Of a DNA stretch of 41,880 nucleotides, positions 1 through 39,420 are shown in pieces; within the stretch, counting starts at the first letter, position 1; every line of letters begins with the position of its first letter. The stretch is from a virus. A program made the position numbers and the translations under genes. The notes below the pieces were generated by a model. The model had not been told where the DNA came from. It did no database searches and saw only the letters and a program-made list of their open reading frames with translations. The stretch lies in IMG/VR virus record IMGVR_UViG_3300035661_000134, positions 1 to 41,880 of that record. The stretch is one strand, 5' to 3'.

Positions 1-71
1 ATAGGTAAGATTAAAAACCTATTGACAAAAAGTTTAAACTGTGATATAATTATAATTAATAAAAGTGAATA
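1..71. repeat. Terminal direct repeat (copy 1)
   Basis: These 71 bases are identical to the last 71 bases of the window (41810-41880). Exact identity of this length at both ends is what a circular contig with k-mer overlap, or a terminally redundant phage genome, gives. The repeat contains one full early promoter. Because a 68-bp tandem repeat lies here, the true copy number at the junction could have been collapsed in assembly. Confidence 0.9.
22..50 (+). promoter_or_regulatory. Early promoter, first tandem copy
   Basis: TTGACA at 22-27, a 17-bp spacer and TATAAT at 45-50, with an upstream TG (42-43) giving an extended -10. This is a full sigma70 consensus. The spacer carries the palindrome AGTTTAAACT (31-40), a possible operator. 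It reads towards the early genes that start at 151. Confidence 0.9.
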
Positions 72-89
72 GGTAAGATTAAAAACCTA

Positions 90-118
90 TTGACAAAAAG
101 TTTAAACTGTGATATAAT
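90..118 (+). promoter_or_regulatory. Early promoter, second tandem copy
   Basis: TTGACA at 90-95, a 17-bp spacer and TATAAT at 113-118, exactly 68 bp downstream of the first copy and identical in the promoter core. The sequence diverges just after it, leading into the AGGAGGTG ribosome binding site of the first gene. In the closed circle three consecutive copies would stand in a row. Confidence 0.9.
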
Positions 119-150
119 TATAATTAAATTTATATAGGAGGTGTAAAGCT

Positions 151-516
151 ATGCAAACAGAAATTTTTGAGTTTAAGGTTGAACGTGATTTGTTAAGTGC
201 GTTATTAAGAACCTTTTCAAAATCAGTTAGAAAAGGTAAGAACCTTTATTTAGAAACATTTAAAGAGAAACCTTATGTGGATATGTGGTTAATTGATAAT
301 AGTTATTACTACATAAGAAGGGTTTTATTACCTATTAAAGAATATTCGAACATTCCAGAAGGGTTGATAAGCTTAAATAAAGAACAGTTTAAAAAGTTTA
401 AACAAACGGTCGTAAATAGTAAAAACAAATACGTTAAATTAAAAATGTATAAATACACGGGTGGATATAGTCCAAAATATGTGTTAATGGTTGAAAATAC
501 CACTATTGAACTTTAA
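151..516 (+). CDS. Small early protein; possible clamp domain 1-like
   Basis: A 121-residue protein, the first gene after the tandem early promoters. ATG at 151 follows AGGAGGTG at good spacing. I cannot name it from a known family with certainty. Its N-terminus (FEFKVERDLLSALLRTFSKS, residues 6-25) resembles the start of bacterial beta clamp domain 1, which typically reads F-x-V-x-R-x-x-L-L. The rest alternates strand-like stretches with a second helix (about 73-88), as expected of one clamp domain. The nearby gene at 1500 encodes a clamp that lacks domain 1, so this could be a detached or paralogous clamp domain. That is inference from pattern only. As the first early gene it could equally be a host-takeover protein. 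Confidence 0.85.
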   Translation: MQTEIFEFKVERDLLSALLRTFSKSVRKGKNLYLETFKEKPYVDMWLIDNSYYYIRRVLLPIKEYSNIPEGLISLNKEQFKKFKQTVVNSKNKYVKLKMYKYTGGYSPKYVLMVENTTIEL

Positions 517-528
517 AATCTAACTAAT

Positions 529-544
529 GCCGGCATATGCCGGC
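529..544. terminator. GCCGGC palindrome, early hairpin 1
   Basis: GCCGGC-ATAT-GCCGGC is a perfect 16-bp palindrome between two early genes. No T-run follows directly, so it is more likely an mRNA-processing, stability or attenuation element than a full terminator. It belongs to a family of such hairpins through 5.1 kb. Confidence 0.6.
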
Positions 545-552
545 GTGTTATA

Positions 553-576
553 TCTGAACCTTGCGGGTTAATAAAA
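553..576 (+). repeat. Leader repeat, copy 1
   Basis: A 24-bp element beginning TCTGAACCTTGCGGG sits upstream of the ribosome binding site and recurs exactly at 1008-1031. Variant forms with CTGAACCGGGCGGG occur at 2784 and 4626. AACC can pair with GGTT to form a tiny stem. It may be a shared 5' leader signal. Confidence 0.65.
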
Positions 577-597
577 TTTAAATAGGAGGTGTTTGTC

Positions 598-969
598 ATG
601 TTAGAATTAACAGGTTTTGATTTAAACCAATTTAAAGACATTTTAGAGATGGTAGAGTATGATATCCATCTCTTAAAACAAGAGGGCGGGGCGTTTTTTG
701 GCTTGCATGTAATATTAAGTAATAACAAATTAAAATTTTTGTTTGCATCTACCAATGAATTATTTGACAATTTCATTGAACCTTTAGAGATGTTATTAGA
801 TGGCTCATATAATTTTAAAAACGGGTTTTTAGAGTATTACATTGTCTATGATTTAATAAGAATTTTTAAAGAATATGATAATGATTTAAAAATAGTGTTA
901 AATGAGGAGTTAACAGAGTTAAAAGTTATTAAAGATAATAAAGTAATATTAGATTATACCATTAATTAA
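598..969 (+). CDS. Small early protein, clamp-domain-like
   Basis: A 123-residue protein. The ATG at 598 is chosen over the GTG at 589 because AGGAGGTG at 584-591 overlaps the GTG and is well spaced from the ATG. No family was recognised with certainty. The pattern is strand (MLELTG), helix (about residues 7-21), then paired strands (GLHVILSNNKLKFLFAS), a second helix near YIVYDLIRIF and closing strands. That order is compatible with a single sliding-clamp domain. The gene shares the L-E-L-x-G opening with the frameshifted gene at 3722. It lies between GCCGGC hairpins in the early operon, two genes upstream of the clamp homologue. Function unknown; the clamp-fold suggestion is inference. Confidence 0.8.
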   Translation: MLELTGFDLNQFKDILEMVEYDIHLLKQEGGAFFGLHVILSNNKLKFLFASTNELFDNFIEPLEMLLDGSYNFKNGFLEYYIVYDLIRIFKEYDNDLKIVLNEELTELKVIKDNKVILDYTIN

Positions 970-980
970 ATCTAATCTAT

Positions 981-998
981 GCCGGCATTACTGCCGGC
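981..998 (+). terminator. GCCGGCA hairpin, early hairpin 2
   Basis: GCCGGCA (981-987), loop TTAC, TGCCGGC (992-998), then GGTTTT. The short T-run makes it a possible leaky terminator after the preceding early gene. Confidence 0.6.
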
Positions 999-1007
999 GG
1001 TTTTAAA

Positions 1008-1031
1008 TCTGAACCTTGCGGGTTAATAAAA
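1008..1031 (+). repeat. Leader repeat, copy 2
   Basis: Exact second copy of the 24-bp leader element seen at 553-576, again just upstream of a ribosome binding site. Same position relative to hairpin and start codon in both cases, so hairpin plus leader moved or were conserved as a cassette. Confidence 0.65.
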
Positions 1032-1051
1032 ATCTATTGGAGGTGTGTATT

Positions 1052-1390
1052 ATGGTATGTGTAAATTTAGCAGTTGTTAACATGACTTGGTCTAAAGCAT
1101 TAAACAGAAGTATTTTAGAATTATGGGAAGTATGGGATCGTGAAGAGCTGATTAAAAAAGAAGAGTTTGAATATGGGACTTCATTTTGTTTAGGTTGTTT
1201 TAAAATTCATATTGACGATCGATTGATTGATAATTACGATGAATTTATTGATAAGGTGGTATTAAAATATAAAAAATGCCATCTTACAATCGAGTTTTAC
1301 AAAAAAGAAAAGTTAATAGAAAGAATAGAAGTTAATGATTATATAATCACAGAAAAAGGTAATGTTTGGTTATGGGCTTCTAAGTTTTAA
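1052..1390 (+). CDS. Early hypothetical protein, paralogue of gene at 4200
   Basis: A 112-residue protein of unknown function. ATG at 1052 follows TTGGAGGTG; the reading frame is open further upstream, but those starts lie inside the leader repeat. The stretch TSFCLGCFKIHID lines up with TTFQLGHFVIDF in the protein encoded at 4200-4526. Downstream spacing is conserved, including the YKK/YKD and IE-x(3)-V segments, so the two look like diverged paralogues. Cysteines and tryptophans are more frequent here than in the neighbours. The gene lies directly upstream of the clamp homologue, separated by the double hairpin at 1402-1460. Confidence 0.8.
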   Translation: MVCVNLAVVNMTWSKALNRSILELWEVWDREELIKKEEFEYGTSFCLGCFKIHIDDRLIDNYDEFIDKVVLKYKKCHLTIEFYKKEKLIERIEVNDYIITEKGNVWLWASKF

Positions 1391-1401
1391 TATCCATAAC
1401 T

Positions 1402-1460
1402 CCCGGTCTATTATAGACCGGGGCTCCTGTTAAGACTTCTTTATAAGAGGTTTTAACAAG
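1402..1460 (+). terminator. Twin-hairpin intergenic element, copy 1
   Basis: Hairpin one: CCCGGTCTA (1402-1410), loop TTA, TAGACCGGG (1414-1422), a perfect 9-bp stem. Hairpin two begins near 1427 (TGTTAAGACTTCT) and pairs with AAGAGGTTTTAACA. The whole unit recurs almost identically at 2301-2359, so it brackets the clamp gene on both sides. Confidence 0.65.
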
Positions 1461-1499
1461 AGTTTTAAACTCTAAATAAAAATTATAGGAGGTTGTGTT

Positions 1500-2291
1500 A
1501 TGATATTTAAAGATGGTGTATTTAGTTTAACAGGTGAAGAGTTATTAACAGCTATCAAAAAGGTTAATTACGCATCAAAAAAGAAAGCTCTCAATGAAAG
1601 ATTTTCTAACATTGGAGTATTTATCAATGTCAATGATATTGAATTTATGGCATCAAATGGGCATCGAATAGCGGTTTATACTCTAAATTTAGATGATGAA
1701 AACTCAGAGGATATTAACAACGATTTAATAGATACAAATTATCCAATCTCGCAAAATACTGTTAAGGAGTTATTAAAAAAGGTTAAAAAGAAAGATATTG
1801 TTAAAATTGAATTTAACAGTGATAATGTTATTTTTGAAAGTAAAAATTTTAAAATTATTGAAAAAGTAAATACTTTTTATCCACATTATACAGAAGTTAT
1901 ACCTTCAGAATATACAAATACAGTGAAAATTTATAAATCTGATTTAATAAATGCTTTAAATCAGATTGAAAATAAACCTTATAAAAGCAATGAAGTTGGG
2001 AATTATACATGCTTAAAACTAACATTTGACAGTATCAATGAAAAGTTGATTATTACTCCTTATTTATCTGATTTAAAGTTTGAAATTGATATTACAGTTA
2101 ATGATTATTACGATGATTTAATGAATATATACATCAATGATAAATATTTATCAGAGGCAATATCTCAAATTGAAGGCGGGGCTGTTATAATAAGATATAT
2201 TAATAATGATGAACCAATTGAGATATTACCTAATAACAATTATGAAGAGTTATATAAAGCTTATATCATGCCTATGGACTGTAATTTTTAA
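1500..2291 (+). CDS. Two-domain beta sliding clamp homologue (DnaN-like)
   Basis: A 263-residue homologue of the bacterial replication clamp, which encircles DNA and tethers polymerase. ATG at 1500 follows AGGAGGTTG. Residues 46-60 (DIEFMASNGHRIAVY) match the beta domain 2 signature F-x-A-T-D-G-H-R-L-A. FYPHYTEVIP (126-135) matches the F-P-x-Y-x-x-V-(I/L)-P end of domain 2. The C-terminal IMPMD (256-260) matches the terminal M-P-M of domain 3. Cellular beta is about 366 residues with three domains; here domain 1 is absent, leaving domains 2 and 3. A six-domain ring would then need three subunits, as in PCNA or T4 gp45, or a separate domain 1. It presumably works with the PolA at 13291. The homology is strong by motif; the oligomer is inference. 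Confidence 0.85.
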   Translation: MIFKDGVFSLTGEELLTAIKKVNYASKKKALNERFSNIGVFINVNDIEFMASNGHRIAVYTLNLDDENSEDINNDLIDTNYPISQNTVKELLKKVKKKDIVKIEFNSDNVIFESKNFKIIEKVNTFYPHYTEVIPSEYTNTVKIYKSDLINALNQIENKPYKSNEVGNYTCLKLTFDSINEKLIITPYLSDLKFEIDITVNDYYDDLMNIYINDKYLSEAISQIEGGAVIIRYINNDEPIEILPNNNYEELYKAYIMPMDCNF

Positions 2292-2300
2292 ATCATAACT

Positions 2301-2359
2301 CCCGGTCTATTATAGACCGGGGCTCCTGTTAAGACTTTCTTTAAAGAAGGTTTTAACAG
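2301..2359 (+). terminator. Twin-hairpin intergenic element, copy 2
   Basis: CCCGGTCTA (2301-2309), loop TTA, TAGACCGGG (2313-2321), followed by a second stem CTGTTAAGA.../...TTTTAACAG (2326-2359). It is a near copy of 1402-1460. Having one on each side of the clamp gene suggests processing or protection of that message. Confidence 0.65.
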
Positions 2360-2395
2360 AAGTTTAAAATTAAAATCTTATAGGAGGTGTAAACT

Positions 2396-2680
2396 ATGGT
2401 AGGTAAAAATGAAATTTTAATCTCAATCTCTAATGATGGTGTAATTTTATACCATCATGAGGGTAAAATGGGCGGGCTGTCTTATTTAGACGGTGGTGTG
2501 ATTTTAGAAAACTCACACGTGCTTTTTAGAGTGGATATTTTAAAATCTGATTTATCAAAATCTTATTTGTTTAAATTTAATATTGATAATGATAAGGTTA
2601 TTTATGAAGGTAAAGCGTATAAGATTTTTACATTTGAAAATGAAGAGGTTAGTTTAGAAATAGGAATTTATGACGATTAA
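2396..2680 (+). CDS. Early hypothetical protein, beta-rich
   Basis: A 94-residue protein, ATG at 2396 after AGGAGGTG. No family recognised. The sequence reads as short alternating strands (EILISISNDGVILYHH, HVLFRVDIL, YLFKFNIDNDKVIYEG, VSLEIGIYDD) with few helices. Its acidic end and length resemble one half of a clamp domain, but there is no motif to support that. It lies just downstream of the clamp gene and before a TGCCGGCA hairpin that could terminate transcription. Confidence 0.8.
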   Translation: MVGKNEILISISNDGVILYHHEGKMGGLSYLDGGVILENSHVLFRVDILKSDLSKSYLFKFNIDNDKVIYEGKAYKIFTFENEEVSLEIGIYDD

Positions 2681-2694
2681 TTAAATCTAACCAA

Positions 2695-2720
2695 TGCCGG
2701 CATTACTGCCGGCAGTTTTT
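2695..2720 (+). terminator. TGCCGGCA hairpin with T-run
   Basis: TGCCGGCA (2695-2702), loop TTAC, TGCCGGCA (2707-2714), then GTTTTT. This is the best intrinsic-terminator candidate among the early GCCGGC hairpins. Confidence 0.65.
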
Positions 2721-2824
2721 AAAAGAATATGATTTAAATCATAGAAAAGTTTAAAACGATGATTTAAAATTATAATCAATAAATCTGAACCGGGCGGGAT
2801 AAAATTTAATAGGAGGTGTTAGTT
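2717..2824 (+). repeat. Duplicated early leader with 14-bp palindrome, copy A
   Basis: About 105 bp between hairpin and start codon. It holds the palindrome ATGATTTAAATCAT at 2729-2742, an AT-rich middle with TATAAT at 2771-2776, and ATCAATAAATCTGAACCGGG at 2775-2794 before AATAGGAGGTGTTA. The outer parts match copy B (4559-4667) almost exactly while the middle has diverged. The same palindrome occurs next to the early promoters at 41739, so a common DNA-binding regulator is plausible. A weak internal promoter at the TATAAT is possible but has no good -35. Confidence 0.65.
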
Positions 2825-3202
2825 ATGTTAAAAAAAGCTTATTTTGAGGTCAATTGCAATGGTGAGTGGTGGTGTGTGGAGTTTGAACTTGAACCAAAAG
2901 GTTATATTACTATTGAACCTTATGGTTGCGGGGATTATGGAGACGAAAATTTTAGAAGGTTTGGCGTTGTAAGTGGGGCTTATATTAGGCAATATCTAAT
3001 TTTTAGATTAACAGATATTTACAAAAATACCATGTATTTAGTAATTGATATTAATTTTTGGGATACTGATTATACTGACGAACAAATTGAGTTTGAATTT
3101 GCGGGCAGAAAAATAACAGTTAAAGCTAAACTGCCGGATTTTAGATATTATTTAATGAATGAAGATGAGTTAAATAGATATTATGAAAGTATGGACGAAT
3201 AA
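2825..3202 (+). CDS. Early hypothetical protein
   Basis: A 125-residue protein. ATG at 2825 is preferred over GTG at 2816, which overlaps the AGGAGGTG site. No family recognised. It is rich in aromatic residues and glycine in the first third (GEWWCVEFELEPKGYITIEP), then strand-like, with an acidic tail (ESMDE). The tryptophan pair and alternating strands suggest a compact beta protein. It has its own leader, shared in arrangement with the gene at 4668, so the two may be co-regulated. Confidence 0.8.
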   Translation: MLKKAYFEVNCNGEWWCVEFELEPKGYITIEPYGCGDYGDENFRRFGVVSGAYIRQYLIFRLTDIYKNTMYLVIDINFWDTDYTDEQIEFEFAGRKITVKAKLPDFRYYLMNEDELNRYYESMDE

Positions 3203-3214
3203 TTAAAACTACCT

Positions 3215-3234
3215 GCTGGCATATGCCGGCTTTT
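3215..3234 (+). terminator. GCYGGC hairpin, degenerate copy
   Basis: GCTGGC (3215-3220), ATAT, GCCGGC (3225-3230), then TTTT. It differs from the 529-544 palindrome by one base, giving a G-U pair in RNA, and is followed by a short T-run. Confidence 0.6.
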
Positions 3235-3268
3235 ATCAAAAATTTAAAAACTAATAGGAGGTGCTACT

Positions 3269-3673
3269 ATGAAAAGAGAGTTAAAGAAACTACAAAAGCT
3301 TTACAGATTAAGAGAGGAAGGCAAACTTCCTTATGTTGAGTATGATATTATTGACAAATACTTTGGCTATGATTACAGTGATTTAATCATTTGGTTTGAA
3401 GATTATCTAACTCCTATACTTGAAAAATCTAACTCAGAACAATTAGAGTTTTTAGGTAATCTGTTATATAGGCTTTCGAAAAGAAAAAGAGATTTTAGAG
3501 AGGATTATAGATTAATGAACTACTTGCAAGAAGAGTTTGGCTGGGAGTTAATAGAATTATTGAATAGATTAGACAGATGGCAGATTAGATTATTAGGGGC
3601 TTATTTAGTCTATCTGTCAGATGAACCTTTAGCATGGGATATGTTAATTGTAAAGCTTAAAAAATTATATTAA
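3269..3673 (+). CDS. Early helical hypothetical protein
   Basis: A 134-residue, apparently all-helical, charged protein. ATG at 3269 after AGGAGGTG. No family recognised. Repeating leucine, arginine and glutamate patterns (LKKLQKLYRLREEGKL, ELIELLNRLDRWQIRLLGAYL) suggest amphipathic helices rather than membrane segments. No cysteines or obvious catalytic motif. Its size and small-helical character fit a phage early protein that binds a host protein, but that is only a guess. Confidence 0.8.
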   Translation: MKRELKKLQKLYRLREEGKLPYVEYDIIDKYFGYDYSDLIIWFEDYLTPILEKSNSEQLEFLGNLLYRLSKRKRDFREDYRLMNYLQEEFGWELIELLNRLDRWQIRLLGAYLVYLSDEPLAWDMLIVKLKKLY

Positions 3674-3721
3674 AACTAATAAGAATTTAAACTTAAAAAT
3701 AAATGTAGGAGGTGTAAAGCT

Positions 3722-4134
3722 ATGTTAGAATTAGAAGGAAGATATTTAATGAGATTTCTTGATGCTATGCATTGCATTTCTACTGAAAGAAAGGAGTTTT
3801 AGAGTTTGACGGAATTTATCTAAAACTTTCTACTGCTGATGGGTTTGTGTGTTTTGAAGAGATGGTCGTAGAACCAGATTATTACTATTATTCTGAAGAT
3901 GAAGATATTGACGATGAAGATTTACCTATCCTTCCTATCGAACCTTTCAGAAAAAGAGTAAATCCAAAATGCTTTAGAAATTGTCTTAAAGAAGTATATG
4001 AGTATGCAAATGAAGACGAAGATTTACTAAGAAAGATTGTAAGGTTAGAAATATACACAGAAAAAGATAAGGTTTATATCGATTTAGTCGATAAATGGAA
4101 ATGCGGTGCATTTAGTGGTTGTATTTTAAAATAA
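3722..4134 (+). CDS. Frameshifted early gene, clamp-domain-like
   Basis: ATG at 3722 follows AGGAGGTG but its frame stops at 3800-3802 after 26 codons. The -1 frame picks up at about 3790 and runs to 4134. Joined at GAAAGAAAGGAG, the product is about 137 residues, continuous in sense: strand LELEG, helix RYLMRFLDAMHCIST, then GVLEFDGIYLKLSTADGFVCFEE. That order resembles a sliding-clamp domain, and the opening resembles the gene at 598. An acidic insert (SEDEDIDDEDLP) follows, then a second helix and strands. The start of the 3' open frame (GTG 3847) has no ribosome binding site, so it is not an independent gene. The shift may be a mutation, a sequence error, or programmed -1 slippage at A-AAG. 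Confidence 0.7.
3785..3796 (+). other. Frameshift site, GAAAGAAAGGAG
   Basis: The upstream frame reads GAA AGA AAG GAG TTT TAG. Slipping back one base on AAG to AAA gives GGA GTT TTA GAG and the long downstream frame. AAAGGAG is also Shine-Dalgarno-like and could stimulate slippage. No strong pseudoknot is evident just downstream. Confidence 0.55.
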
Positions 4135-4143
4135 AAACTAACT

Positions 4144-4166
4144 GCCGGCAGTGATGCCGGTGCGTT
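4144..4166 (+). terminator. GCCGGCA hairpin, variant
   Basis: GCCGGCA (4144-4150), loop GTGA, TGCCGGT (4155-4161), then GCGTTTT. One end pair is a G-U wobble in RNA. It sits between the frameshifted gene and the gene at 4200. Confidence 0.55.
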
Positions 4167-4199
4167 TTATTTATTTTAATTAAAAAAGGAGGTGTTATT

Positions 4200-4526
4200 A
4201 TGCAAAAACCTAACTTAGTTATTATTAATCTTAAAAATCATATTTATGAATTATGGAATATTGTTATTTATTATAATAATGAGGTAAAAGAGGAATTTAT
4301 AAGTCAAAAAGAGTTTATTAGTAAAACTACTTTTCAGTTGGGGCATTTTGTAATAGATTTTTCTATTATTAATAATACTGAATTAGATAAGATTTTAATT
4401 GGATATGTAAAAGGTAAATTGAATATTGATTTATACAAAGATAATAGAATAATTGAATGTTTTGATGTATATAAAAATATACGTATTCAAAAACATGGTA
4501 TTCAAATGTGTATATCAGAAGTTTGA
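4200..4526 (+). CDS. Early hypothetical protein, paralogue of gene at 1052
   Basis: A 108-residue protein, ATG at 4200 after AAAGGAGGTG. No family recognised. Its middle and C-terminal parts (TTFQLGHFVIDFS, KLNIDLYKDNRIIECFDVY) align in spacing with the protein at 1052-1390, so the two are probably paralogues. It is strand-rich and low in charge clusters, with no metal-binding or nucleotide-binding motif. It ends just before a perfect 10-bp GCCGGC hairpin. Confidence 0.8.
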   Translation: MQKPNLVIINLKNHIYELWNIVIYYNNEVKEEFISQKEFISKTTFQLGHFVIDFSIINNTELDKILIGYVKGKLNIDLYKDNRIIECFDVYKNIRIQKHGIQMCISEV

Positions 4527-4532
4527 TAGTTT

Positions 4533-4560
4533 AACTGCCGGCTATTAGATGCCGGCAGTT
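4533..4560 (+). terminator. AACTGCCGGC hairpin, perfect 10-bp stem
   Basis: AACTGCCGGC (4533-4542), loop TATTAGAT, GCCGGCAGTT (4551-4560), then TTAAAA. This is the longest stem of the GCCGGC family. Confidence 0.65.
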
Positions 4561-4667
4561 TTAAAAGAATATGATTTAAATCATAGAAAATGATATAACT
4601 ATCGTTTAAAATATTAATCAATAAATCTGAACCGGGCGGGATTAAAAATCTAATAGGAGGTGTTATC
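4559..4667 (+). repeat. Duplicated early leader with 14-bp palindrome, copy B
   Basis: Second copy of the arrangement at 2717-2824: ATGATTTAAATCAT at 4571-4584, a diverged AT-rich middle, AATCAATAAATCTGAACCGG at 4616-4635, and AATAGGAGGTGTTA before the ATG. Conserved ends around a variable middle indicate selection on the palindrome and on the leader just before the start codon. Confidence 0.65.
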
Positions 4668-5054
4668 ATGGAGTTTTTAAAAAATGTTTTTGATGTTGTC
4701 AAATTTAAAGAATTTGACAAAGCGGAGTATGATGAAGCTATCTATCACTTTGTAAACAAAAATTATGCGGGCGGTGAGATTGAAAGAGTTTATGCTCCTT
4801 CTAACAAGATTGCTAAGTTTATGAAAGAATTGTATGAAAATTATCCTGAATTACTAAACCTTGTAAAAGAGGTTAAGGTTGCTTATTGGAGAGGTAATAG
4901 ATTTAGAGGTCAAGGAGTAGATAAGGGCTTTATAGAAGCTGATAGAAGGTTTTTAAATGCTATCATTAAAGAAGCTTATTTTGAATGGATTGATATGGGC
5001 TGGGGTCATTGGAAGGGTGATTTACAATATGATTTAACTATGTATAAATATTAA
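4668..5054 (+). CDS. Early hypothetical protein
   Basis: A 128-residue protein, ATG at 4668 after AGGAGGTG. No family recognised. The N-terminal half is helical and charged; the C-terminal third is unusually rich in tryptophan, glycine and tyrosine (MGWGHWKGDLQYDL, residues 109-122). A basic patch WRGNRFRGQG (84-93) could contact nucleic acid. It shares a leader with the gene at 2825, so co-expression is likely. Confidence 0.8.
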   Translation: MEFLKNVFDVVKFKEFDKAEYDEAIYHFVNKNYAGGEIERVYAPSNKIAKFMKELYENYPELLNLVKEVKVAYWRGNRFRGQGVDKGFIEADRRFLNAIIKEAYFEWIDMGWGHWKGDLQYDLTMYKY

Positions 5055-5062
5055 CTGAGATT

Positions 5063-5093
5063 AACTGTCGGCATCTAATAGCCGGCAGTTTTT
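5063..5093 (+). terminator. AACTGYCGGC hairpin with T-run
   Basis: AACTGTCGGC (5063-5072), loop ATCTAATA, GCCGGCAGTT (5081-5090), then TTT. One G-U pair; otherwise the same stem as at 4533-4560. Confidence 0.6.
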
Positions 5094-5118
5094 AAAATCT
5101 AATAGGAGGTGTATAGTC

Positions 5119-5391
5119 ATGTTTTTAAGAAATGTATTGTTAATCTATGTTTACCAAAACAGAGATACTAAAATCCAAACAATTATTACATTCACAAACG
5201 AACAAAAATTTAAAGAGTTTTCTAATGCATCTAACAAACGGCTTTATCTTCGTGAAGAGTTGGATTTACCGGAAGATTATTTCTGGAATACTTACATAGA
5301 ATTAGACGAAGATAGTTATTTTAAAGAAATTGACGATGAGTATAAGATTGATAAAGAATTACAGCAAGCAGATAAATTTACTATTAATTAA
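5119..5391 (+). CDS. Small early hypothetical protein
   Basis: A 90-residue protein, ATG at 5119 after AGGAGGTG. The N-terminus is strand-like (LLIYVYQNRDTKIQTIITF); the C-terminal half is acidic (ELDEDSYFKEIDDEYKID). No family recognised. An acidic, small early protein of this kind could be a DNA mimic or a partner-binding peptide, but nothing in the sequence settles it. The next gene follows within 15 bases. Confidence 0.75.
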   Translation: MFLRNVLLIYVYQNRDTKIQTIITFTNEQKFKEFSNASNKRLYLREELDLPEDYFWNTYIELDEDSYFKEIDDEYKIDKELQQADKFTIN

Positions 5392-8680: not shown

Positions 8681-9436
8681 ATGTGTGAGAAAAATTATAA
8701 AAGACTTCTTTATATTGAAGAGTTAGACAATTGTATATCTGTTTCTGAAAGTGGAGAAGATATTTCTCTTTTAAGAGAGTGTAATCTCTCATATACATAC
8801 AAAGCTAAACTTGGTTGTTATGATGTAGAAGCAAATTTTATAAAACGAGATTGGGATTATACAGATTACTTAGATTATTTATATGATGGTGGCGATGAAA
8901 TACCTACAAGTAAAGTTCGTATTGAAGTGGATTTAGATAAGATTAATATTGACAACTTAGAAGGAATATTTGTTAATATAATACCGAAGCAAAATTGCTT
9001 AAAATCTATCATCGGTTATAAAGGAGATTTTTATAGAGGGTTTGAAGTTTTGTTTAAAAAGAGAGAAAACTCTTGTGAAGATTTAGAAAGTTTTAATTGG
9101 TCTCCTGAGCTTATATTAGAAGATGTTTATAAAGGTAAACAAGTTAGTATTAATATAGATAAAACTTATTCTTATCTTAGTTATTTTGATAATACCAACA
9201 GGCGTGTTGATATTCAATTTGACTACACTATAGGAAAACCTTTAGAGTTTGTTTTAGAAGATTTCAAGATAAAAGGTCAAGTTGATTTAAATATCCCATG
9301 TCAGATAAGTTTCACTTGTTTTAGAGCTGAAGGTTTATTAGAAGTTAAAGTTAATAATATTATGTTTTATGTAGAAAACAGTTTAGAGTTTTCAATAAAT
9401 AATAAAGTTGCAAATTTTGAAATAAAAGCGAGGTAA
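8681..9436 (+). CDS. Hypothetical protein, beta-rich, in replication cluster
   Basis: A 251-residue protein. ATG at 8681 follows AAAGGAGG; an earlier ATG at 8674 is out of frame and stops after four codons. No family recognised. It is strand-rich and acidic throughout (KVRIEVDLDKINIDN, RRVDIQFDYTIG), with scattered cysteines but no clear metal site. The C-terminal 60 residues look like a beta sandwich. Position between the helicase and the Cas4-like nuclease implies a DNA-processing role, perhaps as an accessory subunit. That is context only. Confidence 0.8.
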   Translation: MCEKNYKRLLYIEELDNCISVSESGEDISLLRECNLSYTYKAKLGCYDVEANFIKRDWDYTDYLDYLYDGGDEIPTSKVRIEVDLDKINIDNLEGIFVNIIPKQNCLKSIIGYKGDFYRGFEVLFKKRENSCEDLESFNWSPELILEDVYKGKQVSINIDKTYSYLSYFDNTNRRVDIQFDYTIGKPLEFVLEDFKIKGQVDLNIPCQISFTCFRAEGLLEVKVNNIMFYVENSLEFSINNKVANFEIKAR

Positions 9437-10161: not shown

Positions 10162-13023
10162 ATGGAGTTGCAACAGTTAGATTTTTACACTTTTGCAGAT
10201 GTTCTTGGATTACTTGAAAGAAAAAAGAAAACTTTTAATCCACAGAACTTGGTTGTAGAAGTTGCAAATTTTAACGAGTTGTATTTAGTTGGATTTAATC
10301 CAATGGTTGTAGCTTTACAAGGAGATAAGCTTACAACCATGAGAGAACTTTTTGGTGAGACTACAGAAGAAGTTTTTAAGAACAGGATAAATTCTTTATC
10401 AACTGACACTTGGAAAGACCTTAGATTTACAGTAGGTTTATATTTAAACAATAATCATTCACACTCTAACTTTTATAAGTCAAAAGTTATTGCAAGATTA
10501 GATACAGACAAACAAATGTCTTTAGAAGAGTTTAGACTGCATCTTGAAAATACATTCCAAGAGTATCAGCCAAACATTATCCATAAAACTTTCAAAGGTT
10601 GGCATGCGTTTTGGTTGGCTGAAGATTTTATTGAGAGTAAAGATAAACACTTAATAGAAAACTTCGTCGCATTCTTAAATGCTTTAAAGACAAAAGCAAA
10701 AGCAACTTGGATAGATGAGATAAAGTGTTTTAGTGCTTTTACAAGAATAGTTAATGAAGATTTACCATGCTATACATACAATCAAACTCTTTACTCTTTA
10801 GACTTTTTAAGAGATATTAAAGGTAAAGACATATCTACAGAACACGAATATATAACACCTTCACTCCAAGAGTTTGAAGATGTATTGGCTCATTGTGAAG
10901 CTTACCAAACTTTAGACAACTTATGGGAAATTCACACTTACGACCAATGGTTTGTAATGGCTTGGCTTTATGCTGTGAGATATTACCTTAGCACAAGTGA
11001 AGCAGAGAAAAAGCTTATTTACAATGAGTATGTAGATAAGTCTTTAACTTACCAGAAGAAGAAACCTAACATTAAAGAAATAGAAAAGCAGTTTAAAGAA
11101 GCTTTAGAGTGGGCTACTGAAGATGGAGTTTTAAAGCTTCCTTCATGTAGAAAGTTGTATATTCCAAACATATGTGAGAAATGCCCGCTGTTTAGGGAAA
11201 AAGATGGTTATATTGTTTCACACCCGTTTAGGGATAAATACAAATTTGAAGTTCAAGTTGATGGTTTTGTTATAAAGAACGGGCGTTGGTATGCTATAGA
11301 GATTGATAAAGAAGGTGAAGAATATCTTATTGAAGTTTGTAAAGAGTTTAAAATATTAAAAATCTTGCGTAAATATATGCCATCTGAGACTGTAGATTAT
11401 TTAAAGTTGTTAGTTAATAATAAAACATATGTTATTGAAAAAGATAATAAAGCAGATGGCGGGCTTAATCTTTCAAATATTGCAAATATAATTCCTGTTA
11501 AAAACAAAAGCAAGTTTAGACAATTGATTGAAAGCTATATTTATAAGATGTTATTTGAAAGTAATAATTTTGTGGAAATAGACTTTATTGGATACAGAAA
11601 AAGATTTGGCTTTAGAGATTATGAGTATATAGTTGCGAATGAAAACGTTAGCGAGCAGGATATTTACGGTGTGTTATATGGCTATTTCAATGACCCGTCA
11701 AACCTTGCAGACTTTATACCTTCCAAAAAAGGTAGTTATGAGAAGTGGAAAGAAGCATACTTAAAGCTTTTTGAACTACAGGAGCCATTATCTTTATATC
11801 TTACAGGTTTTGCTTTATCCCATCTTTTACTTGATTGGTATCGTGAAGAGACAGGATTTTTATTAACTCCGATAATCGCTCTCAAAGGAGAAAGCCGAGT
11901 AGGAAAAACAAAGAGAAGTATAATCTCTTTGGCTCTGTTTGGTAAACCAAAAGAGTTTAGCTTTGGCAGTATTACAGAAGCCCGTATCAAAAATCAGTTC
12001 GGTGTGATAAAGACACCACTTATCATTGACGAAGTTGTGTCAAAAGGCAATAACTTTGATAAGATGAGAAATCTTTTATATCACATAGCTAATGCCAGCA
12101 TTAAAGCCGATGCCTACAAAACGGCTCCACCTATAACAAGCCCTGTCATTCTTACAGGAGAACCTAAGAACTTTTCTTTAGAAAAACTCTTTGAAGAAGC
12201 ACAGGGTTTAGTAAGAAGAGTTTTCACCATTCTTTTAAAAAGAGAAACTCTAATGAGCCATATATGGGAGACAATAGATAATGAGATATTGCCTACTTTA
12301 TCTAAAAACTACGGCTGGATTTTTAAACATCTTAATGCGTTTAAAACAGCTGATTTAAGTAAATTATTTAAAGAGACAAAAGCATTGGTGGAAACTAAAT
12401 TTGATAAGTTTAAAGGCACTTTGTATGAAGACCATATTATACAAATATCATTATCTTTCACTGCATTTAAAATCTTTTACACCGAACTTGGAATAAGTGA
12501 AAAAGAGATAGATAAAACTTTAGAAATGATTTCAGATTACTTACTTGAAAAAGCAGAAATACTTGCTGATTTCTTATCTTCAGATAATACGTTTGAAGAC
12601 TTGTTATTAGATATTGCTAACAAGTTAAAAGAAGCTATCTCTTTAAGAAAAGAATTAGCGGGGCTTTCTCTTTCACAAGCTCTTGCAAAAGCTGATGTTA
12701 GCATTAGTGGGCTTGATAAAGAGGAAAGCTTAATCCTTAAACTTGTTTTCGGGAAACGTTATAAGTCAGGTAATTACTACTATACCGAAACTGTGATAGT
12801 TGACCCAGTGCATAAAGATGCCGATATAAACAGATTACTTCATAACAGAGAATTAGTTAATCAAAAGACTTGGAATTATTTTGTAGAGATTTACAGAAAT
12901 TTAATTAAGAAAAAGTATGATGAAAAGATTGCGTCAAATATACTAAACCAATTTGCTAATGCTGGTTTAGAAGAGTTTAAAGAAGAAAGTAAAACTAATG
13001 AAATAGAGGAGGTAGATTTCTGA
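10162..13023 (+). CDS. Primase-helicase (AEP-like primase + SF3/AAA+ ATPase)
   Basis: A 953-residue replication protein, ATG at 10162 after TAGGAGGTTG. N-terminal primase-like part: D114-T-D116 (RLDTDK) and H141...GWHAFW (148-153), as in archaeo-eukaryotic/PrimPol-type primases. A cysteine set C329, C338, C341 (NICEKCPLF) resembles the zinc-like motif linking primase and helicase. The ATPase has Walker A GESRVGKT (576-583) and Walker B LIIDE (620-624), followed by an arginine-rich segment near RRVF, in the style of DUF927/SF3 helicases. It would prime and unwind at the origin. The C-terminal end is acidic. The primase assignment is less certain than the ATPase. The stop overlaps the next ATG. 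Confidence 0.82.
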   Translation: MELQQLDFYTFADVLGLLERKKKTFNPQNLVVEVANFNELYLVGFNPMVVALQGDKLTTMRELFGETTEEVFKNRINSLSTDTWKDLRFTVGLYLNNNHSHSNFYKSKVIARLDTDKQMSLEEFRLHLENTFQEYQPNIIHKTFKGWHAFWLAEDFIESKDKHLIENFVAFLNALKTKAKATWIDEIKCFSAFTRIVNEDLPCYTYNQTLYSLDFLRDIKGKDISTEHEYITPSLQEFEDVLAHCEAYQTLDNLWEIHTYDQWFVMAWLYAVRYYLSTSEAEKKLIYNEYVDKSLTYQKKKPNIKEIEKQFKEALEWATEDGVLKLPSCRKLYIPNICEKCPLFREKDGYIVSHPFRDKYKFEVQVDGFVIKNGRWYAIEIDKEGEEYLIEVCKEFKILKILRKYMPSETVDYLKLLVNNKTYVIEKDNKADGGLNLSNIANIIPVKNKSKFRQLIESYIYKMLFESNNFVEIDFIGYRKRFGFRDYEYIVANENVSEQDIYGVLYGYFNDPSNLADFIPSKKGSYEKWKEAYLKLFELQEPLSLYLTGFALSHLLLDWYREETGFLLTPIIALKGESRVGKTKRSIISLALFGKPKEFSFGSITEARIKNQFGVIKTPLIIDEVVSKGNNFDKMRNLLYHIANASIKADAYKTAPPITSPVILTGEPKNFSLEKLFEEAQGLVRRVFTILLKRETLMSHIWETIDNEILPTLSKNYGWIFKHLNAFKTADLSKLFKETKALVETKFDKFKGTLYEDHIIQISLSFTAFKIFYTELGISEKEIDKTLEMISDYLLEKAEILADFLSSDNTFEDLLLDIANKLKEAISLRKELAGLSLSQALAKADVSISGLDKEESLILKLVFGKRYKSGNYYYTETVIVDPVHKDADINRLLHNRELVNQKTWNYFVEIYRNLIKKKYDEKIASNILNQFANAGLEEFKEESKTNEIEEVDF

Positions 13024-38871: not shown

Positions 38872-39420
38872 TTGTTTGTTGTAATTGAAGGTATTGACGG
38901 AAGCGGTAAATCTACACTTGCTAAATTTCTTGCAGAAAAAATTCCTAATTCAGTTTTAATGAAAGAAAATACAAAATGGTTAGAAGCAATGCCTCAGTTT
39001 CCTGAAATTGCAGATATGTTGTTTGAAGACTTTTGCAAGGAAAGGGTTAATTATAGTAAGCGTATAGAAAAGTTAATAAAAGCAGGATATGTAGTAATTA
39101 GCGATAGATTTTATCCTTCAACTATATGCTATCAACTTGAAAATTGTGAAAAATATGACTGTAAGAAAATGATTGAAATTTATAATAAATATTACCCTCA
39201 ATGGTTAAAGCCTGATTTAGTTTTAATCCCGTCAGTGCCTTTTGTGATTTGTTTAAAGAGAATTAGAAAAAGAGGGGAAGAAGTTGACGCAAAGTTTCTA
39301 AGAAAAGTAAAGAAATGTTATAACATGATTGGTGATATGGTTGACAATGTAGTGTATGTTAGAAGTAAAAACTATGCTTTAGCAGTTATTGAAGAAATGT
39401 TAAAAAGACCGCCTGAATAA
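38872..39420 (+). CDS. tmk: Thymidylate kinase
   Basis: A 182-residue dTMP kinase, phosphorylating dTMP to dTDP. TTG at 38872 with AAGGAG eight bases upstream. P-loop EGIDGSGKST (6-15), the D-R-(F/Y)-x-x-S motif as ISDRFYPSTICYQ, and PDLVLI. Length slightly below bacterial enzymes, fitting a phage version. It pairs functionally with ThyX encoded opposite, supplying dTTP. The start has an extended -10 close by. Confidence 0.92.
   Translation: MFVVIEGIDGSGKSTLAKFLAEKIPNSVLMKENTKWLEAMPQFPEIADMLFEDFCKERVNYSKRIEKLIKAGYVVISDRFYPSTICYQLENCEKYDCKKMIEIYNKYYPQWLKPDLVLIPSVPFVICLKRIRKRGEEVDAKFLRKVKKCYNMIGDMVDNVVYVRSKNYALAVIEEMLKRPPE

Follow-up and report, generated by a model that had tools for sequence, protein, structure and literature searches.

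A two-domain phage beta clamp that lacks domain 1, and a possible split sliding clamp

The window, by which we mean the whole stretch of viral DNA analysed (the full record of 41,880 bases), encodes a 263 aa sliding clamp of the DnaN type that consists of domains 2 and 3 and has no fused domain 1, and the same early region holds a gene (151-513) whose product is predicted to fold as one single clamp domain. It is quite possible, if not quite probable, that the clamp of this virus is made in pieces, with domain 1 supplied in trans and a hetero-oligomeric ring as the outcome. Our preferred reading, which we put forward tentatively, is a natural split beta clamp: a six-domain hetero-oligomer built from the two-domain DnaN and one or two separate single clamp domains. 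Such a clamp would be new among ring clamps in having a single-domain subunit, and it could stand as an intermediate between the three-domain dimers and the two-domain trimers. The clamp gene and its motifs are:

1500-2291, plus strand: two-domain DnaN-type sliding clamp, 263 aa (profile and profile-profile matches)
1650-1676, plus strand: domain 2 pocket motif ASNGHRIAV, residues 51-59, in which the equivalents of E. coli G174-H175-R176 are kept
1875-1904, plus strand: inter-domain motif FYPHYTEVIP, residues 126-135
1962-1994, plus strand: QIENKPYKSNE, residues 155-165, replacing the R-A-S-L-L helix
2259-2288, plus strand: C-terminal pocket segment AYIMPMDCNF

An earlier note, made from the sequence alone, had described this protein as a beta clamp lacking domain 1, and profile searches agree with that description. 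TIGR00663 aligned residues 10-259 with its positions 129-365 of 367 (E 1.3e-16), at a score of 60.6 bits that lies below the family cut-off of 137.65. Among the Pfam matches were PF02767 (central domain, E 6e-7) and PF02768 (C-terminal domain, E 4.5e-6, its score of 26.9 bits being just under the cut-off of 27), and PF00712 was absent. Residues 5-260 matched positions 125-364 of 368 in phrog_947, a family of phage processivity factors (E 1.9e-19). Beta clamps of the PDB match the protein from about residue 126 onward. In the profile-profile comparison the whole protein was aligned to positions 124-366 of full DnaN (probability 99%), with residues 6-134 on domain 2 and residues 135-260 on domain 3. 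We set the limits at residues 1-134 for domain 2 and 135-260 for domain 3. The signatures on which the original assignment had been based were located in the translation (GHRIA at 54-58, FYPHYTEVIP at 126-135, MPM at 257-259).

The N-terminus of the clamp is genuine. An AGGAGG lies immediately 5′ of the ATG, giving the gene its own ribosome-binding site, and a hairpin repeat stands between this ATG and the preceding gene. No domain 1 was found upstream of 1500-2291 in any frame, and 263 aa leave no room for a third domain. Since a 68-bp tandem repeat is found at both ends and closes the record, domain 1 was probably not cut off. The protein is a diverged DnaN with domain 1 lost or split off, and not necessarily an ancestral form. 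An identical hairpin, CCCGGTCTATTATAGACCGGG, occurs at 1402-1422, 5′ of the clamp gene, and at 2301-2321, 5′ of the ORF at 2396, in both cases inside an 83-nt repeat.

The architecture departs from that of other viral clamps. We compared 80 viral contigs with DnaN loci, taken as the closest matches to a standard phage clamp query; because of this ranking, rarer forms may be under-represented among them. Domains 1, 2 and 3 were encoded in a single ORF in 78 of the 80, and the remaining two were cut by contig ends, so that every locus with a complete N-terminus (78/78) had three domains in one ORF. Against these 78 loci, the missing domain 1 is far beyond chance. The ten viral loci found first comprised nine full-length clamps and one 200 aa clamp (domain 2 and a short tail). 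This 200 aa clamp, from a 69-kb virus (L133:5685-6287), retains only a little of domain 3 after its domain 2. A Bacillota genome contains a 125 aa stand-alone ORF resembling DnaN domain 3 (L131:4719-5096).

For the peptide-binding pocket we used the residue list for the beta clamp given in PMC11139829. Retained in the phage protein are G, H, R, P, V, M, P and M, and the equivalents of R246 and R365 are changed to E and D, respectively. This retention argues for selection over decay, and partner binding by the pocket is probably under selection, as judged from the residues kept. A functionless remnant, left after a captured DnaN had lost its domain 1, would account for the low number of conserved domain 2 and domain 3 positions retained (17 of 51) and for the broken gene nearby at 3722-4134. 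This explanation is highly improbable, given an intact frame with a good ribosome-binding site, the retained pocket residues and a two-domain cut that falls exactly at the domain border.

The contact edge of domain 3 is altered. R-A-S-L-L, the dimer contact of beta in this domain, is missing, with QIENK/ENKPY in its place, and a few residues are inserted at the site; the R of this motif is present in 35 of 36 non-redundant DnaNs. Loss of the dimer contact is compatible with a two-domain monomer that binds to the phage DNA polymerase and acts without forming a ring. Herpes UL42 is a monomer-type, non-ring processivity factor of this kind, and a family A polymerase could take a small accessory factor. 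The predicted inner helices of clamp domain 2 are basic (+3, +5), as in rings, and we regard such a non-ring factor as quite improbable.

The changed edge would also suit a homotrimer, in which three two-domain copies close a six-domain ring as in PCNA and T4 gp45 through a new contact between domain 3 and domain 2, and in which the single-domain proteins act elsewhere. One chain holds two complete clamp domains, which is the layout of PCNA and gp45. PMC8357120 reports that PCNA aligns with domains 2 and 3 of beta and does not decide between a gain and a loss of domain 1. A homotrimer leaves the adjoining single clamp domains unexplained, and we consider it fairly unlikely. These neighbours and the other elements of the early region are:

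22-118 (22-50 and 90-118), plus strand: two perfect tandem TTGACA-17-TATAAT promoters, in a 68-bp unit, 5′ of 151
151-516, plus strand: 121 aa protein, predicted single sliding-clamp domain and candidate domain 1 in trans (AlphaFold2, Foldseek)
598-969, plus strand: 123 aa protein, probably another single clamp domain (AlphaFold2 model of low confidence, Foldseek)
2396-2680, plus strand: 94 aa ORF, weakly similar to the second half of clamp domain 2 (equalled by 5 of 500 shuffles)
3722-4134, plus strand: broken frame, possibly a decayed third single domain (opening DNA resembles 598-969)

The genes 151-516 and 598-969 lie 0.5-1.3 kb from the clamp gene and share its early block, which is preceded by strong promoters and begins with 151-516. 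AlphaFold2 models cover the products of 151-513 and 598-966, each predicted without a partner. For the 151-513 sequence alone a confident model was obtained (pLDDT 83.6, pTM 0.77). It consists of a strand, a helix and three strands, twice in succession, which is the make-up of one clamp domain. In a Foldseek search of the PDB with this model, 49 of the 50 best matches were sliding clamps (DnaN, gp45, PCNA, 9-1-1), the sole exception being a designed protein at rank 1, and TM values of the PDB matches reached 0.65. The neighbouring clamp was not known to the predictor, so the agreement in fold is independent. Among viral models, the best-named match of equal length was A0A6J5L0N7 from an uncultured phage, annotated as 'DNA polymerase III, beta chain, N-terminal'. 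This stand-alone clamp domain of 123 aa is close in length to the 121 aa protein and was matched to it by fold only.

At the level of sequence, the 121 aa protein has no relatives in Pfam, PHROGs, tblastn searches on phages or phmmer searches on the PDB. The comparison with DnaN domain 1 by hhalign, which is the clean test, gave no match (0.4%); in hmmsearch against domain 1 profiles, whose set contains some domain 2 sequences, 18 of 300 shuffles scored as well. The N-terminal stretch FKVERDLL had been likened to a domain 1 motif, and this resemblance was lost on profile scoring. The net charge of the protein (+9) falls outside the range of domain 1 in 36 DnaNs (-14 to 0). Its predicted helices are basic (+3, +3), like those of clamp domain 2 and as expected of a DNA-facing side.

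The evidence for 598-969 is weaker. The model of 598-966 is of low confidence (pLDDT 56, pTM 0.55), and its 50 top matches in the PDB are all beta clamps, at E values of 0.07 or worse. No real relative of the product, which has a net charge of -11, was found through Pfam, PHROGs or tblastn on phages, and hhalign and hmmsearch on domain profiles showed no sequence-level similarity to domain 1. The third candidate, 3722-4134, opens with MLELEGRYLMRF (MLELEG..), which resembles the 598-969 opening at the DNA level (repeat D18), and its frame breaks near 3785-3800. The layout suggests another, possibly decayed, single clamp domain; a profile signal for a clamp domain was not found in 3722-4134.

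Further features were observed in the early region. The ORFs at 1052-1390 and 4200-4526 form a paralogous pair (32% over 109 aa, z 13.6). A leader motif, CTGAACCNNGCGGG, lies 5′ of four early genes, at 554, 1009, 2785 and 4627, a number reached in none of 100 shuffles, and a DNA scan for it matched one contig. GCCGGC hairpins with T runs are found 3′ of several early genes.

In the split clamp that we propose, the 263 aa protein would provide domains 2 and 3 with the entire peptide-binding pocket, and domain 1 would be a separate small protein, most likely the 121 aa product and possibly also the 123 aa product. Two copies of each part would make up the usual six-domain ring around DNA, with each single-domain protein bridging domain 3 of one large subunit and domain 2 of its counterpart. 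The earlier note had named a partner domain as one way to close such a ring. This option gains from the prediction of a single clamp domain, made with good confidence for 151-513 and more weakly for 598-966; that the parts associate into a ring we infer. No clamp loader was recognised among the phage genes, so that opening and loading of the clamp would fall to the loader of the host; the clamp would then tether the phage PolA. The proximity of the genes, their common early region, the predicted fold and the basic helices of the 121 aa protein suggest a split clamp; the missing sequence trace of domain 1, the charge of +9 and the loss of R-A-S-L-L speak against it.

The small genes come first behind strong early promoters, which is typical of genes for host take-over. 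The single domains might block replication in the host by binding its loader or the open edges of its beta clamp; the two-domain protein might soak up the clamp-binding peptides of host polymerases or replace the host clamp. The opposite charges of the small proteins (+9 versus -11) and a pocket that is retained with the ring contact lost would be in agreement with this, and Twort Gp168 is a phage protein that targets the beta clamp (PMC11139829). We found no evidence of inhibition, and a role in replication fits TOSV and TGBSV, for which a putative sliding clamp and no clamp loader were noted (PMC7689252). Take-over of the host is unlikely in our view.

Other genes of the window are:

10162-13023, plus strand: DUF927 primase/helicase-like protein, separate from PolA (profile; PMC7689252)
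13285-14931, plus strand: family A DNA polymerase with 3′-5′ exonuclease, the presumed client of the clamp (profile)

A PD-(D/E)XK/Cas4-like nuclease, an SNF2-type helicase, terminase, portal and capsid proteins were also identified by profile. The 68-bp tandem repeat with its promoters is common to both ends of the record, with two further copies at the right end (41763, 41831), so that the record probably represents either a full circle or a genome with terminal repeats. QLDFY (DUF927 residues 5-9), the sole candidate for a terminal clamp-binding motif, was dropped, as it is missing in the relatives L219 and L221. A 251 aa beta-rich ORF (8681-9436) lies between the helicase and nuclease genes and is missing at this place in the related contigs G089 and G091.

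The proposed genus Pyrovirus from hot springs comprises genomes of 37-42 kb with PolA, DUF927, nuclease, helicase, thymidylate kinase, portal, terminase and capsid genes (PMC7689252). This gene content was found in the window, counting a thymidylate kinase-like ORF (38872-39420) whose assignment comes from reading the sequence alone. Judged by its gene content, the virus belongs to a clade that resembles Pyrovirus. TOSV and TGBSV are viruses of the same kind, with PolA, DUF927, Cas4-like nuclease, helicase, thymidylate kinase and a clamp but no loader; the main text of PMC7689252 does not give the domain make-up of their clamps, and the likeness is one of gene content.

Relatives sought with the 263 aa clamp (P0001), the helicase and the A2 pattern yielded little. 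PolA patterns led to L219, L220 and L221, which form one clade with L002, their PolA being 70-86% identical to that of the window. All four clade contigs (G089, G090, G091, G002) are without the region 1-5,200 of the window, and no match to the clamp, the 121 aa or the 123 aa protein was found in these contigs, where the early region is absent. Repeats in the region 1-5,200 probably break assemblies. At its end (L289:1-400), G091 seems to carry a gene for a ribonucleotide reductase beta subunit, a feature also described for JC39 (PMC7689252).

In the known ring clamps considered here, six domains come from two chains of three or from three chains of two. With the bacterial beta clamp (DnaN, TIGR00663) the phage protein shares domains 2 and 3 by profile and the pocket motifs GHR, YP..VIP and MPM; it differs in lacking domain 1, in the lost dimer-contact motif of domain 3 and in its score below the cut-off. 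PCNA and T4 gp45, which are trimers, likewise have two clamp domains per chain, but the phage sequence is of the DnaN type and only DnaN families were matched; a trimer is a possibility here. Hetero-trimeric PCNA of crenarchaea and 9-1-1 are rings of different subunits, as proposed for the phage, yet each of their subunits has two domains, whereas the candidate partner in the phage has a single one. A beta clamp that is split or lacks domain 1 was not found described in the open full-text literature. The possible evolutionary link between the beta and PCNA designs, raised in the earlier note, is already in print (PMC8357120).

If the split clamp is real, its separate subunit of one domain would mark clamp domains as building blocks that can be exchanged. 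One could then test whether beta arose by domain gain or PCNA by domain loss, both of which are considered in PMC8357120, and the phage would offer a small, probably heat-stable clamp for a family A polymerase that can be reconstituted.
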